NCBI GenBank assembly: GCA_018645065.1
Contig: JABGPF010000023.1
Span: 1 to 33,266, forward strand
From: Phycisphaerales bacterium
Lineage (GTDB): Bacteria; Planctomycetota; Phycisphaerae; SM23-33
Direction of reading: 5' to 3'
DNA: 33,266 nt
The notes beneath the pieces are model-generated. The model had not been told where the DNA came from. It was given only the letters and a program-made list of their open reading frames with translations, and made no database searches. Shown piece by piece: positions 4,425 to 29,995 of the stretch; position 1 is the stretch's first letter; every line of letters begins with the position of its first letter. The position numbers and the translations under genes were made by a program.

Positions 4425-6431
4425 TTATCGGTCCCTTGACTCTTTTCTGAACGTTAACACGGTGTTAAAGTTCTGCAGTATTTCCCGCAGTTGGTTGATC
4501 GTCCAGGCGATATACGCCTCGGTGTGTGCCGGTTTACCGCGTTTTTCCGTTATCAGTCCGTTGTAGACAGGTGAGAGGAACGTTTCGATTTCCTTTTCTG
4601 TCAGTGGTTGCGGATTTGCGCCCCAAGCGAGCAGTTTGCGGAACCTGGTGCGGTAGGCCTGGTTGCTGTTGTGCTGCTTGACTGTAAGGAAACTGCCAAG
4701 CGACATGCCCATCTGCAGCCCCTTCAGCGCCAGTGCAACCAGTTCGTAGTTCAGGTTGCGTCCCAACCGCATGAACTTGAACTGCTGGACGTAGCGTCCC
4801 GGTTTTCGTCCTGCCCGAACGGCGCCGTACGATTCGTCGGAGCTTTCGCTTTGTCTGCGTGAGACTCGTGAAAATTGCAGGGTGTTGGCTTTTAGTATGT
4901 TTCCCTCTTCGGGCGGTTTGTTGCCCAAGAAATCCTTGCGGCTTATTTCGTCGTTCATCAGGCGGTTAATGACGATGTTTCCATTTTCGTCGGGTCCGGG
5001 GTCTCCGGCCAGTGCGAACAGGCATTTCAGCACGCTCAGCGGTGGTGGTCGGTCCACCGTTGGTCTGTTTTTGCTGCTTCTTAGTTGCATTGATATGTGG
5101 ATACTGTGTGGTTCGATCTGGTCGTAAAATCGTCTTGTTTCGCTGATAATCTGATTGAGCACCCACGGATCGTCGGTAATTGGCATGGAGATATTTTCTT
5201 CGATCGACAGGCTTCCCAACGCCAGTTCGAAGAACCCTCTTCTCTGATCGTGCGATGATTTTACGTAGTGGTCGTCAATATGCCCACCGAGCTTCCAGGT
5301 CAGGACATCGAGCCCGAAGTCGGTGAAGTAGATGAAACCGTCGTATTCGGCGTCATGTATGCGTCTGGCCTGGGGGTCTCGTATTACGTCGTTTCCGATG
5401 TTCGAGAATTCCAGTTCGGCGCCCAGCGGGATATATCCTCTGGAGCCCATATTGTGGCCGATGAAATCGAGTTCGGATTTAACTTGTTGCGGGTCGTAAA
5501 ATTCGTCGGCGGCGATTACGCCCCATCGCACGAATTCCACCAGGGCGTTTTTCGGGAACGTCAGTTCGTCCAGGCAGTCGCCTACGACCAGTTCCAGCGT
5601 ATCTGAGAGTTTGTTCAGTATTCTCATCGCCGCCAGCGAACTTATCGTGCGATCGTACATGTCTTTTCGCAGGCCCATCTGGTCCAGTTCGTAGTGGCAG
5701 TCGTGATGGATGCGTTCCTCCAGTTGGTTGAACACGACTTGCCTGATGACCATTGACAGGTAGTTCGGCGCCAGTTTTGCGGCTTTTGGATCGTTGCTGA
5801 TTCGTTCGAAGCCTGGCAGCGGTGCGTCCAGAAGCGATTGCCTGATGGTGTAGTCGCTGATCCCTCCGGCGGCAAAGTGGTGTCGAACCATATCGCGTAT
5901 TTTGGGTCCGCAAAGTTCGCCCAGTGCTCGCCTGGTGAATGCGTCTGTGGTTTGCAGGCGTTTTTGTTCGGTTTCCAGGAGTGCGGCTTCGATTTTTTCT
6001 CGGAGCAGAATTTCCTGTTTGAACTCGTCTTTGAACGCATACCCGAACGAGTGTTCCAGTTGTTTGGTGTTGCCCAGGAAGACGATTGCTTCTTCGCGTC
6101 CTTTGCGTGTGGCGACGCGGACTCTTCGGCGCCTGTAGTTTCGCCCTTCGTACTTTCTGAGTACCGCCAGCAGGTCGAGGCTTAATGGTCCGATGAGATA
6201 TCCCTGTATTCGTGAATGGCGTGCAGGCACGGCGTAAAGATATGTATTGTCAGGGCTTATCGTCTTGTGCCCGTTGAGCACAGCCCGCCTTGCCAGAACA
6301 GCGTCTTCGTCGTTGAGCATTGTCCTGTCGGTAACCAGACGTTTACCGGTAACGGCGCGCATGATCGTCGGGTTCTTCAGCGTACCGTATACAAACAGAT
6401 TGAATGTTTCTCGTTTTGATGCCTGGTCCAT
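4425..6431 (-). CDS. Fusion: AIG2/gamma-glutamylcyclotransferase-like N-terminal domain + large C-terminal region with amidoligase-like (glutamine-synthetase-fold) motifs
   Basis: N-term FNLFVYGTLKNPTIM...YLIGPLSLDLLAVLRKYEG (GGCT/AIG2 pattern); C-term GAELEFSNIG, GGHIDD, FFELALGSLSIEENISMPITDDPW, PHSIHISMQLR. Confidence 0.55.
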   Translation of the reverse strand: MDQASKRETFNLFVYGTLKNPTIMRAVTGKRLVTDRTMLNDEDAVLARRAVLNGHKTISPDNTYLYAVPARHSRIQGYLIGPLSLDLLAVLRKYEGRNYRRRRVRVATRKGREEAIVFLGNTKQLEHSFGYAFKDEFKQEILLREKIEAALLETEQKRLQTTDAFTRRALGELCGPKIRDMVRHHFAAGGISDYTIRQSLLDAPLPGFERISNDPKAAKLAPNYLSMVIRQVVFNQLEERIHHDCHYELDQMGLRKDMYDRTISSLAAMRILNKLSDTLELVVGDCLDELTFPKNALVEFVRWGVIAADEFYDPQQVKSELDFIGHNMGSRGYIPLGAELEFSNIGNDVIRDPQARRIHDAEYDGFIYFTDFGLDVLTWKLGGHIDDHYVKSSHDQRRGFFELALGSLSIEENISMPITDDPWVLNQIISETRRFYDQIEPHSIHISMQLRSSKNRPTVDRPPPLSVLKCLFALAGDPGPDENGNIVINRLMNDEISRKDFLGNKPPEEGNILKANTLQFSRVSRRQSESSDESYGAVRAGRKPGRYVQQFKFMRLGRNLNYELVALALKGLQMGMSLGSFLTVKQHNSNQAYRTRFRKLLAWGANPQPLTEKEIETFLSPVYNGLITEKRGKPAHTEAYIAWTINQLREILQNFNTVLTFRKESRDR

Positions 6432-12316: not shown

Positions 12317-12448
12317 TCGATAGTAATAATTATCCGCAGATTTTACACGAACTAACCGCCCGTGTCACCGGTGAACCCGCAGAGGCGTTAAACTGTGCTT
12401 GCATTTAGCGGCAAATCCCATACTCTCAGGGGCAAACAAGGAGCACTA

Positions 12449-15016
12449 ATGCTAACTGAACACCTGAAAAAAAGCTGCGTTTTGATCTCTACTGTTATGC
12501 TGCTGAGCGGTACGCTCTCGGCGGCGAAAGTAATTCCGCCCGAGCCTGTAGGCCCGCCGCCGGACCTTACCAAGGGCGGAGTGCTGATCAATTCCGGCTC
12601 GTTCATGCTGGGACCAACTGGCGCCCATGGGCGAATGTTCGTTAGAAACTACATGAGCGGTGACGCTCGTCAGATTCTTATCACGCAAGTTGATGAAGGC
12701 TCCGCGGCTTCCGGTCTGCTCGCGGTCGATGATATCATTCTCGGGATCGGCGATAAAAAATTCGATAGCGACGCACGCAAAAGTTTCGGTAGGGCGATTA
12801 ACGACGCCGAAACTGAAAAGCTAAAAGGCGTACTGAAGCTGCTGCGATGGCGAGCGGGCAAAGAGAAAGTAGTCAGCCTGAAACTCAAAGTGATGGGCAC
12901 CTACAGCGACACGGCGCCGTACAACTGCCCCAAGTCCAAACGGATTATGGAAGATGCACTCAAGGTGCTGGCCGCTCGGGAAAAATCCGTCAAGTTCTCG
13001 CTGGATATCCTTGCGTTTCTGGCATCGGGCAAGCCTGAGTATGTAAAGCTCGCTCGCGAGCGGATCCACGCGGCCAGGTGGGCCTCGCCCGATACAAAGT
13101 GCGGTAACAGCGCCTGGAACGCCGGATATCTAGGCACGGTGCTGTGCGAATATTACCTGGCCACCGGCGACAAGTACGTTCTCCCGGCGATTCGGGAATA
13201 CGCGATTAAAACAGCGATGGGCCAGGGCGGACCGGGCACCTGGGGCCATCGGTTTGCTCCCCCCGATGCTAATGGAAAACTGCACGGAAGGCTGATGGGC
13301 TACGGCGGGTTGAATTGCGCCGGCGTCCCGTGTTTCCTGGCGCTGACGCTGGCCAAGAAGTGCGGAGTGAACCATCCTGAAGTTGATCAGGCGATCAAGC
13401 GGTCCAGCAGTTTCTTCAGCCAGTTTGTCGGACACGGATCCATCGGTTACGGATACCATCGCGCCAGCCTCGAACGGCGCAGCAACGGGCGCAATGCACT
13501 TTCGTCAAACGGGAAAAACGGAACCGCCGCCGTGGCGTTTGCCGTGCTGGGCGATAAGCGGGTCGCACAATATTACTCCAAGCTGCTGACCTCGTCGTAC
13601 GACGAACGCGAGTACGGGCATAGCGGTAATTCTTACGGCGTGTTCTGGGGCGCCCTGGGCGTTAACTGCGGCGGGCCAAAAGCAGCCGCTGCGTTCGGTA
13701 AGGAACTGCTCTGGTACAATGCGCTGACACGCAAAGCCGACGGTAGCTTTATCACCCAGCCGCTGGGCGGATACTATGGCGGTAGGGGCGTTATCGACGC
13801 AACCGTAGCGCACGTGCTGTCAAACGCTGTCCCGCTGAAAAAGATTTACCTCACCGGTAAAGATGTCCCGAAAACGCTGCATTTAAGCGAGACAGACGTG
13901 AAAGATGCGATCGGCTCGGGCAGATGGCGCTGGGCTGAATACGATAAAATGACCGCCGACGAACTGATCGCCAAGCTCGGCGACTGGTCGCCCGCGGCCC
14001 GCGAATGGATCGCCGACTGGCTCGGTAAGAAGAGCGGTAATCACACCGCCAAGTTGGTTAAGCTGCTGGCCAGCGACGATCATTACACCCGCGCCGGGGC
14101 GTGTGCCGCGCTGGGATATCAGGGCGAGCGATCGGCGGCCGCTGTTGACGCTGTGTCAAAAGCGCTTGCGGACGAAAACGAAGTTGTGCGAGTCGCCGCC
14201 AGTTACGCACTGATGCGAATCGGTAAGCCCGCACGACGAGCGGTGCCTGCGATGATTCAGGCGGCGTTGTCGACTAACGAAGCAAACACGATGCAGCCGA
14301 CGCAAACCGCGATCGCCTACAGCCTGGGACACGATCCCACCGGCGGTGCTCCGCTGTATTGCACGGGCATGTTCCCCAAATGGCCCAAGGGCGAAGACCC
14401 GCTGAAAGGAATTGATCGCAAGGTGCTTTACCCGGCGATTAGAAAGCTGCTGAAGCATTCGTCGGCCCGAACGCGCGGGTCGGGGGCGTATGCGTTTAAG
14501 TATTTAAACCAGCAGGATGTCGCTGTGTTGGCCCAGGATATTTATGACATCACACGGGAGATGGCGCCGCATTATCCGATGTTCGGTGATGTGCCTCGTC
14601 AGTACGGGCTCGACCTGATGGTCCGTATGAACTTGAAAGACGGCGTCAAGATTTGCGTCGATACGATGGAACTGGGCACATGGGGCGGCAGCACTCGCTA
14701 CCCGCACCGTCTGGCCACGCTGGAAAAATACCGCGGCGCAGCTAAAGAGTTTCTGCCGCAGATCAAGGCATGGCTGCCGAAGTTCCGCAGACCAGATGAG
14801 CGTGCTGCACTCGAAAAGGTCATCAAGATAATCGAGGATGACAAGAATCCGCCGAAGATGACCAGCCTTGCCGAACTCGTCGAAAAGCGATTGGCCGACG
14901 CACTGGCTTCGGCGAAAACGGACAAGCAACGCGCCGAAATCTGCGCGCAACTCGTAAAAGACAACCTCCGCGATACCTTCATGATCGCGGCGGTAAGGAA
15001 GTATCTGGCGAAGTAA
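12449..15016 (+). CDS. Secreted PDZ + HEAT-repeat protein (DUF6288-like)
   Basis: Signal peptide SCVLISTVMLLSGTLSAAK, PDZ-like QVDEGSAASGLLAVDDIILGIGDKKF, C-terminal HEAT-like repeats; AAGGAG SD before ATG 12449. Confidence 0.7.
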   Translation: MLTEHLKKSCVLISTVMLLSGTLSAAKVIPPEPVGPPPDLTKGGVLINSGSFMLGPTGAHGRMFVRNYMSGDARQILITQVDEGSAASGLLAVDDIILGIGDKKFDSDARKSFGRAINDAETEKLKGVLKLLRWRAGKEKVVSLKLKVMGTYSDTAPYNCPKSKRIMEDALKVLAAREKSVKFSLDILAFLASGKPEYVKLARERIHAARWASPDTKCGNSAWNAGYLGTVLCEYYLATGDKYVLPAIREYAIKTAMGQGGPGTWGHRFAPPDANGKLHGRLMGYGGLNCAGVPCFLALTLAKKCGVNHPEVDQAIKRSSSFFSQFVGHGSIGYGYHRASLERRSNGRNALSSNGKNGTAAVAFAVLGDKRVAQYYSKLLTSSYDEREYGHSGNSYGVFWGALGVNCGGPKAAAAFGKELLWYNALTRKADGSFITQPLGGYYGGRGVIDATVAHVLSNAVPLKKIYLTGKDVPKTLHLSETDVKDAIGSGRWRWAEYDKMTADELIAKLGDWSPAAREWIADWLGKKSGNHTAKLVKLLASDDHYTRAGACAALGYQGERSAAAVDAVSKALADENEVVRVAASYALMRIGKPARRAVPAMIQAALSTNEANTMQPTQTAIAYSLGHDPTGGAPLYCTGMFPKWPKGEDPLKGIDRKVLYPAIRKLLKHSSARTRGSGAYAFKYLNQQDVAVLAQDIYDITREMAPHYPMFGDVPRQYGLDLMVRMNLKDGVKICVDTMELGTWGGSTRYPHRLATLEKYRGAAKEFLPQIKAWLPKFRRPDERAALEKVIKIIEDDKNPPKMTSLAELVEKRLADALASAKTDKQRAEICAQLVKDNLRDTFMIAAVRKYLAK

Positions 15017-28207: not shown

Positions 28208-29995
28208 ATGGAGGACCGGGATGTGAAGAGGTTGAAACGACATGTTGTTCGTCTTAGAGTTCGCTTGGCTGGTTTGAGTGCTGGCGCGCGGTTTGCGGCT
28301 GGTGCTTTTGCTGCGGTGATTCTGGGCGGTGCGGTTTGGTTGGTTTGGGCGATGGTCTCGCCCGAACCGATGATAGCTGTCGCACGCGATCTCGACGGCG
28401 TTTCGCGGGAGCGAGCGGCGGTTGCTTTGGTGCGCCAGGGCGTTAAGGTCCGTCGCACTGAAGGCGGGCTCCTGGTTCCGGCCGGTTCTCTACCCGAGGC
28501 GCAAAAAGTGTTGCGTTCGACTGCGCCAAGCGTTGAATCGTCGGGTTTTGGTTTGCGAAAGTTGGCTGACAGTTCCAGCATGTGGCGGAGCAGTGCGGAG
28601 AATAAGCGTATCTGGCAGGCGGGTGTTACCGCTGAGTTGGGGCGTTTGATTACTGACCTGGCGCCGATCGAATCGGCTTCGGTGCTGTTCGAGCCTGGCT
28701 CGCCGGGCGGACTTGGCTCCCAGGGCAGGGCGGCACGGGCTGCGGTGAAAGTAACGTTGGTTAAAGGGCGTCGTATGGCTCCTGGTCTGGTTGTCGCCAT
28801 TGGCGAACTGGTTTCGGGAAGCGTTTCGGTTGAGTTGGGCGAGGTTCGCGTGATTGATCAGACTGGGCGCAGTTATCGCCCGTCGTCTGACGTTTTGACG
28901 CTGGCTCGGCGTAATTCGGCTGAGTCGTATTACACAGAGAAGGTCACCTCGGCGCTTCGTTACATTCCTGGCGTGACAGCCGATGTGCAGATTATCGGCG
29001 CCCGGGTTGACTTGAACCAACTCGCCGGTGACGGGTTGAGGGTGTGGATATCGGTTCCGCGAAGCTATGTTTCGTCGTCCGGTAACACAGGTTCACAGCA
29101 GCAGCAAATAGCATCGATTAAGAATGCCGCTCACGCGATTCTTGGTCCGGCGGGGCGTCATGAGGTAACTGTAGCTTTACATGGCCCGGTTGGCGCCAAG
29201 GTGAACGCCGCCCAAGCCGCCGGCGGGATTGAACAAAGCGTATTCTTCATCGCGATTGTCGCCTCGGCGTTTCTTGGCGGGATGGGCTTGTGGTTGGCGT
29301 TGCGATATCGTCGCATAGCCGTCGGCAGGCCGGTAAGCATACCTTCGCCAGTCCGCGACCAGAGCAATGACGAGCTTGGCTACGATCTGTTGGCGTCTTT
29401 ACCGCAGGAGCCTTCCGAGGAGCCTGACGATGAGTTCGCTGGCGAACATCCGCAGACTCTGGCGTTGATCCTGTCTCGCATGCCGACCGGGCAGGCCCGC
29501 GATATTATCTCTCGCCTTCCGTTGGAACTTCGCTCCGAAGTTACGCGGCGTATGGATGACCTGAGCGACGTTGACGCTGAAGTGGTTTCGGAAATTAATC
29601 GTGATATCTCACGCCGCGTCGGACGCAGCGACGGTGAAGCCGAAAATCCCGATCGCCGACGGGCCGAACGCGACGCTCTGAAATTGCTGGCGTTTGAAGA
29701 CATTGTGCATCTGGGCTCGGGCGAGCTTAGGATCGCACTTGGTGCGGTCGACTCTGACGATCTTGCGATATCGTTGCGAATGGCCGCTCGGCACGTTAAG
29801 CGAAAAGTCCTGGGATGTCTCGTGGCGAAAGACGCCCAATACGTGCGTTCCAGGATGGACGGGATCGGGCCTGTGCGAATCTGCGACGTGGAATCGGCCC
29901 GTCAGCGTGTTATGGAAATAGTCAGTCAGGCTTCCGGTGTGTCTCAGGCCCCGAAGAACATAGACTGTGGTGAAATGATGGAGGGCGCCGTATGA
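28208..29995 (+). CDS. FliF-FliG fusion: flagellar MS-ring protein with C-terminal FliG middle and C domains
   Basis: N-term FliF (TM1; GGLLVPAGSLPEAQKVLRS; VTAELGRLITDLAPIESASVLFEPG; TM2 VFFIAIVASAFLGGMGLWLALRYRR); C-term FliG (EHPQTLALILSRMPTGQARDIISRLPLELRSEVTRRM; LLAFEDIVHLGSGELRIALGAVDSDDLAISLR...GPVRICDVESARQRVMEIV). Confidence 0.85.
   Translation: MEDRDVKRLKRHVVRLRVRLAGLSAGARFAAGAFAAVILGGAVWLVWAMVSPEPMIAVARDLDGVSRERAAVALVRQGVKVRRTEGGLLVPAGSLPEAQKVLRSTAPSVESSGFGLRKLADSSSMWRSSAENKRIWQAGVTAELGRLITDLAPIESASVLFEPGSPGGLGSQGRAARAAVKVTLVKGRRMAPGLVVAIGELVSGSVSVELGEVRVIDQTGRSYRPSSDVLTLARRNSAESYYTEKVTSALRYIPGVTADVQIIGARVDLNQLAGDGLRVWISVPRSYVSSSGNTGSQQQQIASIKNAAHAILGPAGRHEVTVALHGPVGAKVNAAQAAGGIEQSVFFIAIVASAFLGGMGLWLALRYRRIAVGRPVSIPSPVRDQSNDELGYDLLASLPQEPSEEPDDEFAGEHPQTLALILSRMPTGQARDIISRLPLELRSEVTRRMDDLSDVDAEVVSEINRDISRRVGRSDGEAENPDRRRAERDALKLLAFEDIVHLGSGELRIALGAVDSDDLAISLRMAARHVKRKVLGCLVAKDAQYVRSRMDGIGPVRICDVESARQRVMEIVSQASGVSQAPKNIDCGEMMEGAV

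Follow-up and report, generated by a model that had tools for sequence, protein, structure and literature searches.

The window, by which we mean the whole stretch of DNA analysed, is an entire 33 kb contig (33,266 nucleotides) from the 5.8 Mb genome of a Phycisphaerales bacterium. Translation of the window gives, on its minus strand, a 668-aa open reading frame (ORF) that begins with ATG and occupies 4425..6431; across the same interval, the plus strand is crowded with stops. An earlier note made from the letters of the sequence had placed an ORF at this position without stating its strand; the ORF is borne out here, and every motif cited for it (FNLFVYGTLK, GAELEF, GGHIDD, FFELALG...ISMPITDDPW, and PHSIHISMQLR) is found in the translation in the same order. 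The ORF is far from a chance one. Matches are present in 31 of the 60 relatives' genomes that were searched, and the same GTDB family holds 21 more full-length copies at 51-82% identity. Compared with the closest relative (82% identity), dN/dS is 0.08 over 667 codons, and the gene is under purifying selection. The encoded protein is made up of three regions, with the following features.

4425..6431, minus strand: whole gene, 668 aa, made up of a GGACT domain, an all-alpha region, and a predicted glutamine synthetase (GS)-fold domain
6066..6398, minus strand: GGACT/AIG2 gamma-glutamyl cyclotransferase domain, residues 12-122 (Pfam PF06094; AIG2-like structures 2g0q and 2jqv)
6378..6389, minus strand: YGTL substrate-binding loop, residues 15-18 (48-row alignment; role from PMC2954230 and PMC7022552)
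6135..6152, minus strand: YEGRNY, residues 94-99, with the catalytic-type Glu95 and Tyr99 (48-row alignment)
5451..6026, minus strand: all-alpha middle region of no known family, residues 136-327 (secondary structure of the model)
4431..5438, minus strand: predicted GS-fold (carboxylate-amine ligase-like) domain, residues 332-667 (AlphaFold2 model and Foldseek)
5409..5423, minus strand: core strand 1, GAELE (GhExE), residues 337-341 (model and alignment; signature from PMC2588565)
5268..5288, minus strand: core strand 2, GGHIDDH, residues 382-388 (D386 and H388 in 46 of 48 rows)
5223..5234, minus strand: core strand 3, FFEL, residues 400-403 (E402 in 46 of 48 rows)
5085..5111, minus strand: core strand 4, PHSIHISMQ, residues 441-449 (model and alignment)
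4962..4964, minus strand: Arg490, in the loop before core strand 5 (48 of 48 rows)
4854..4856, minus strand: Arg526, in core strand 5 (48 of 48 rows)
4776..4787, minus strand: core strand 6, QQFK, residues 549-552, [QE]x[RK] (model and alignment)

Elsewhere in the window, the plus strand encodes an 873-aa protein with DUF6288 and HEAT repeats (12395-15016). A 595-aa ORF on the same strand (28208-29995) joins a YscJ_FliF domain to FliG middle and C-terminal domains, a natural FliF-FliG fusion; the genes after it encode FliH and a FliI/T3SS-type ATPase.

The cyclotransferase domain and the helical middle region

The assignment of the N-terminus to the AIG2/GGACT group, as proposed in the earlier note, is supported by sequence comparison. 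The Pfam GGACT family (PF06094) matches with an E-value of 3.1e-10 and, at 41.1 bits, clears its cut-off of 22.8, and the same family is matched by all 24 homologues in the first alignment. A profile search of the PDB retrieved the plant AIG2-like structures 2g0q (E 2.9e-8) and 2jqv (E 9.9e-8), and a fold search with the full-length model also retrieved human GGCT and mouse GGACT. GGACT is characterized by a YGTL loop and by a catalytic Glu and Tyr (PMC2954230, PMC7022552). Here, Y15, G16, E95, and Y99 are present in 48 of 48 rows of the alignment, and position 17 is either Thr or Ser. E95 appears to correspond to Glu82, judging from the AIG2 alignment and the order of the motifs. The YGTL loop, the catalytic Glu and Tyr, and the Pfam GGACT match are thus common to this protein and to GGACT (A2LD1) and AIG2-like proteins, but the latter are small and stand alone, whereas here some 540 further residues are fused to the domain. 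The middle stretch of about 200 aa, previously left without an assignment, is helical in the model, and residues 136-327 gave no separate match in the fold search with the full-length model.

The C-terminal domain and its predicted glutamine synthetase fold

The C-terminal region had been put forward as a GS-fold amidoligase. The fold is the part of this proposal that stands, through structure prediction, fold comparison, and an ordered signature; the link to amidoligases by sequence profile does not, and the Amidoligase_2 HMM is unmatched. AlphaFold2 gave a pLDDT of 86.8 and a pTM of 0.78 for the whole protein, and a pLDDT of 83.2 and a pTM of 0.86 for residues 326-668 modelled alone with 48 sequences. 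When the C-terminal model was compared with the PDB using Foldseek, the best solved fold was PafA (E 2.9e-4, prob 1.0), and Dop was matched with an E-value of 5.9e-3. The top ten matches (E 2.9e-4 to 0.11), which include PafA-Pup, Dop, GshF, glutamine synthetase, and PafA-ADP, are by this modelled comparison all GS-fold carboxylate-amine ligases or relatives of them, and the best unrelated match has an E-value of 0.16 and a prob of 0.18. With GS-fold proteins filling the first ten places, the outcome named in the earlier note as speaking against it, a C-terminus of some other fold, did not arise. The TM-scores for these PDB matches are only about 0.45, with an rmsd of about 8 Å, and the domain is therefore probably a remote member of the GS-fold superfamily. 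The full-length model retrieved GS, GmaS, PafA, and plant glutamate-cysteine ligase (GCL), and in a viral structure library, 4 of the first 11 rows returned for the C-terminal model are named 'Amidoligase enzyme'.

Searches with the C-terminal domain in Pfam, NCBIfam, PHROGs, PADLOC, and PDB sequences returned nothing usable. Comparison by hhalign with PafA, GCS2, and Amidoligase_2 scored no better than with seven unrelated controls, although the shallow PafA and Amidoligase_2 alignments make this a weak test. Membership of Amidoligase_2 (PF12224) was rejected, as its HMM was matched neither by the protein and its 24 homologues nor anywhere in the organism's own genome. Membership of the Pup ligase family (PF03136) was likewise set aside, with no HMM match in the protein or in its own genome.

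The features of GS-fold carboxylate-amine ligases were listed in 2008 by Iyer, Burroughs and Aravind (PMC2588565). We mapped this signature onto the strands of the model and the 48-row alignment, a post hoc exercise that serves as corroboration rather than as an independent test. The elements fit the published order, with two of them deviating, the strand-4 motif and the strand-6 Asp. The GAELE motif sits on a model strand that spans residues 336-342, and G337, E339, and E341 are each found in 47 of the 48 rows. Strands 2 and 3 carry the acidic residues D386 and E402, respectively (46 of 48 rows each). Strand 4 contains S443-x-H445, followed by S447 and Q449; compared with the superfamily motif [HDQ]x[NH], the His is retained and the first residue is Ser. 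The required Arg residues in strand 5 and in the loop preceding it are both present, as R526 and R490. In strand 6, Q550-x-K/R552 is present and Arg555 occupies the position of the Asp (superfamily Ex[RK]x2D or [QH]x4D). Helices follow strands 3 and 6 in the model, and four further helices end the chain; PafA also contains further helices beyond the core (PMC2588565). Prediction in this way supports both the GS fold and the residues of its active site.

Distribution, descent, and gene neighbourhood

A match was found in 77 of 299 sampled Phycisphaerae genomes, nearly all of them full-length fusions, and the carriers fall in seven GTDB families, numbered here f1, f7, f11, f17, f21, f25, and f26. 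There is one copy per genome, except where genes are split across contig ends, and every one of the 48 aligned sequences retains the whole fusion. Outside Phycisphaerae, the matches in the phylum sample extend over only the GGACT domain. Within this sampling, which lies almost wholly in Planctomycetota and barely covers other phyla, the fusion is confined to the class Phycisphaerae. In the gene tree, f1, f7, f11, f17, and f21 are each found on a single side of a branch, a pattern that fits vertical descent of the fusion. A mobile or phage origin was considered and rejected, as searches gave no relative on a plasmid, phage, or viral contig, and a role as a defence system was discarded when the PADLOC search was unmatched. 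As a separate observation, 4 of the 298 Phycisphaerae genomes searched contain true PF03136 Pup-ligase homologues, apparently two per genome (loci L109-L112), and the families that have them are families where the fusion gene was not found.

In f17, f21, f25, and f26, the gene is the last in a tight same-strand cluster (loci L067-L085). The cluster is made up of a class I/II aminotransferase, a membrane protein of about 950 aa, a GT2 glycosyltransferase, an alanine racemase in eight of the loci, and the GGACT/GS-fold gene, in that order, with gaps that are mostly 5-100 bases. The protein of about 950 aa is hydrophobic, apparently crosses the membrane multiple times, and has no Pfam match. The cluster in these four families hints at an envelope-related amine or amino acid as the substrate. 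The aminotransferase/GT2 cluster is absent from the window's own family, where the gene is flanked by an S-adenosylmethionine synthetase gene and, at its other end, by a divergently transcribed Ser/Thr kinase gene with a STAS protein gene next to it; this neighbourhood points to no substrate.

A possible cycle of ligation and release

The reading that we favour, and to which we would give roughly even chances, is of a bifunctional enzyme that serves as both gamma-glutamyl ligase and cyclotransferase. With Mg-ATP, the C-terminal GS-fold domain would activate a carboxylate, for which the gamma-carboxylate of glutamate is the likeliest candidate, and would then join the activated carboxylate to an amine. 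The GGACT domain would free the amine from the gamma-glutamyl-amine, yielding 5-oxoproline. A single chain could in this manner run a make-and-break cycle on one substrate pool, for transient protection, trimming, or editing. We infer the probable GGACT chemistry from the conserved residues and the putative ligase chemistry from the fold and its signature, and at a further remove we infer that the GS-fold domain ligates and does not hydrolyse, that glutamate is the donor, that an amine is the acceptor, and that the two activities are coupled. In favour of a bifunctional protein are the invariant GGACT residues, the confident model, the GS-fold matches, the ordered signature, the intact fusion, and the purifying selection, along with the joint loss of ligase residues in f11 and the neighbouring ligase and AIG2 genes of firmicutes (Iyer 2008). 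Against it are the lack of a profile link above controls, the low TM-scores, the two motif deviations, the absence of PxpA, the two f11 proteins, which are missing the metal residues predicted on strands 2 and 3, and a neighbourhood in the window's own family that is silent on the substrate.

Alternatively, the GS-fold domain may be a Dop-like hydrolase, in which case the protein would serve degradation alone, each of its domains cleaving gamma-glutamyl or isopeptide bonds. Dop does rank beside PafA among the top fold matches, and two domains acting in one direction leave no futile cycle to explain. However, the known GS-fold families are mostly ligases (PMC2588565), no Pup-like partner ORF adjoins the gene, and the organism's own genome gave no Pup ligase HMM match; we think a hydrolase unlikely.

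The two f11 sequences (L030 and L031) bear on another possibility, in which the GS-fold domain catalyses nothing or acts as a sensor, binding a nucleotide or a ligand that resembles glutamate and regulating the GGACT domain. Both have jointly lost D386, H388, E402, and H445, and with them the predicted metal-binding residues, yet they retain the GGACT residues; two core motifs that are off the superfamily consensus also suit a sensory role. Nevertheless, all the predicted catalytic residues are retained in the 46 non-f11 rows of the 48 despite great divergence, which would be unexpected in a merely structural module, and such a role seems improbable to us. Joint loss is also what would be predicted of residues in one shared pocket, and it lends indirect support to the clustering of the E-x-E and His motifs on which the earlier note relied; both sequences belong to a single lineage, however, and one event may account for the pair.

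It is also conceivable, at a similarly low probability, that the ligase alone is active and that the GGACT domain has drifted to a role other than 5-oxoproline release. A PxpA-type 5-oxoprolinase, PxpA being the only oxoprolinase looked for, is missing from every carrier examined, and the nearest solved structures are those of plant AIG2-like proteins. The absence of PxpA may mean that 5-oxoproline is perhaps no major product, and it weakens the case for bulk production while still allowing it. Against such drift, Y15, G16, E95, and Y99 are found in every one of the 48 rows, including those of f11 with their degenerate ligase site.

The bifunctional ligase/cyclotransferase that we favour can be set beside several known systems. 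It resembles PafA and Dop in being placed with them by the top fold matches, in the GhExE of strand 1, in the Arg residues of strand 5 and the preceding loop, and in the Gln of strand 6, and it shares with PafA the extra helices after the core. It differs from both in its N-terminal GGACT domain and in an identity of only about 8% in the fold alignment, and here there is no PF03136 match in the own genome and no conserved adjoining Pup-like ORF. Pupylation was rejected, as the few Phycisphaerae genomes with a Pup ligase are in families without this gene, and the gene has next to it no conserved small ORF with a G[EQ] ending. With no such Pup-like ORF and no Pup ligase match in the own genome, the peptide-tagging pathway suggested in the earlier note found no support.

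In butirosin biosynthesis, ligation of a glutamyl group by BtrJ is followed by its removal by the GGCT-fold enzyme BtrG, which amounts to a protecting-group cycle. This attach-then-remove glutamyl cycle is like the one proposed here, but BtrJ is an ATP-grasp ligase that acts on a carrier protein, and BtrJ and BtrG are two separate proteins.

Another such system is found in firmicutes, in which genes for GCS2-sized GS-fold ligases adjoin genes for AIG2-family cyclotransferases, and peptide metabolite synthesis has been predicted for these neighbourhoods (Iyer et al. 2008, PMC2588565). The present protein shows the same association of a putative GS-fold ligase with an AIG2-type cyclotransferase, and models of viral Amidoligase enzymes rank high in the fold comparison of its C-terminal domain. 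Proteins of the CJD_1902 type probably correspond to today's Amidoligase_2 (PF12224). The firmicute pairs are separate neighbouring genes, whereas here one chain holds both domains together with an all-alpha region of about 190 aa, and the PF12224 HMM is unmatched. The fusion is undescribed in the open-access literature that we searched, a scope outside which lies the main amidoligase survey (Iyer et al. 2009). Adjacent ligase and AIG2 genes had already been reported; a lineage-wide fusion in a single chain is, to our knowledge, new.

When domains that make and break the same kind of bond stay joined in a single chain throughout a bacterial class, a functional link between them is strongly indicated. 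The known ligase/AIG2 gene neighbourhood evidently occurs as a fusion too, in an enzyme family without database annotation past its first 110 residues, which would add to the GS fold a lineage missed by sequence profiles. A more ambitious proposal, which we regard as a long shot, is that this Phycisphaerae family runs a reversible, Pup-independent modification system, in which one chain both adds a gamma-glutamyl group to an amine of the envelope or of a protein and takes it off again. The family offers a defined target for transient gamma-glutamylation in Planctomycetes, and its pairing of a bond-cutting domain with a predicted bond-making one suggests an undescribed cycle acting on a small molecule or a cell-surface component.
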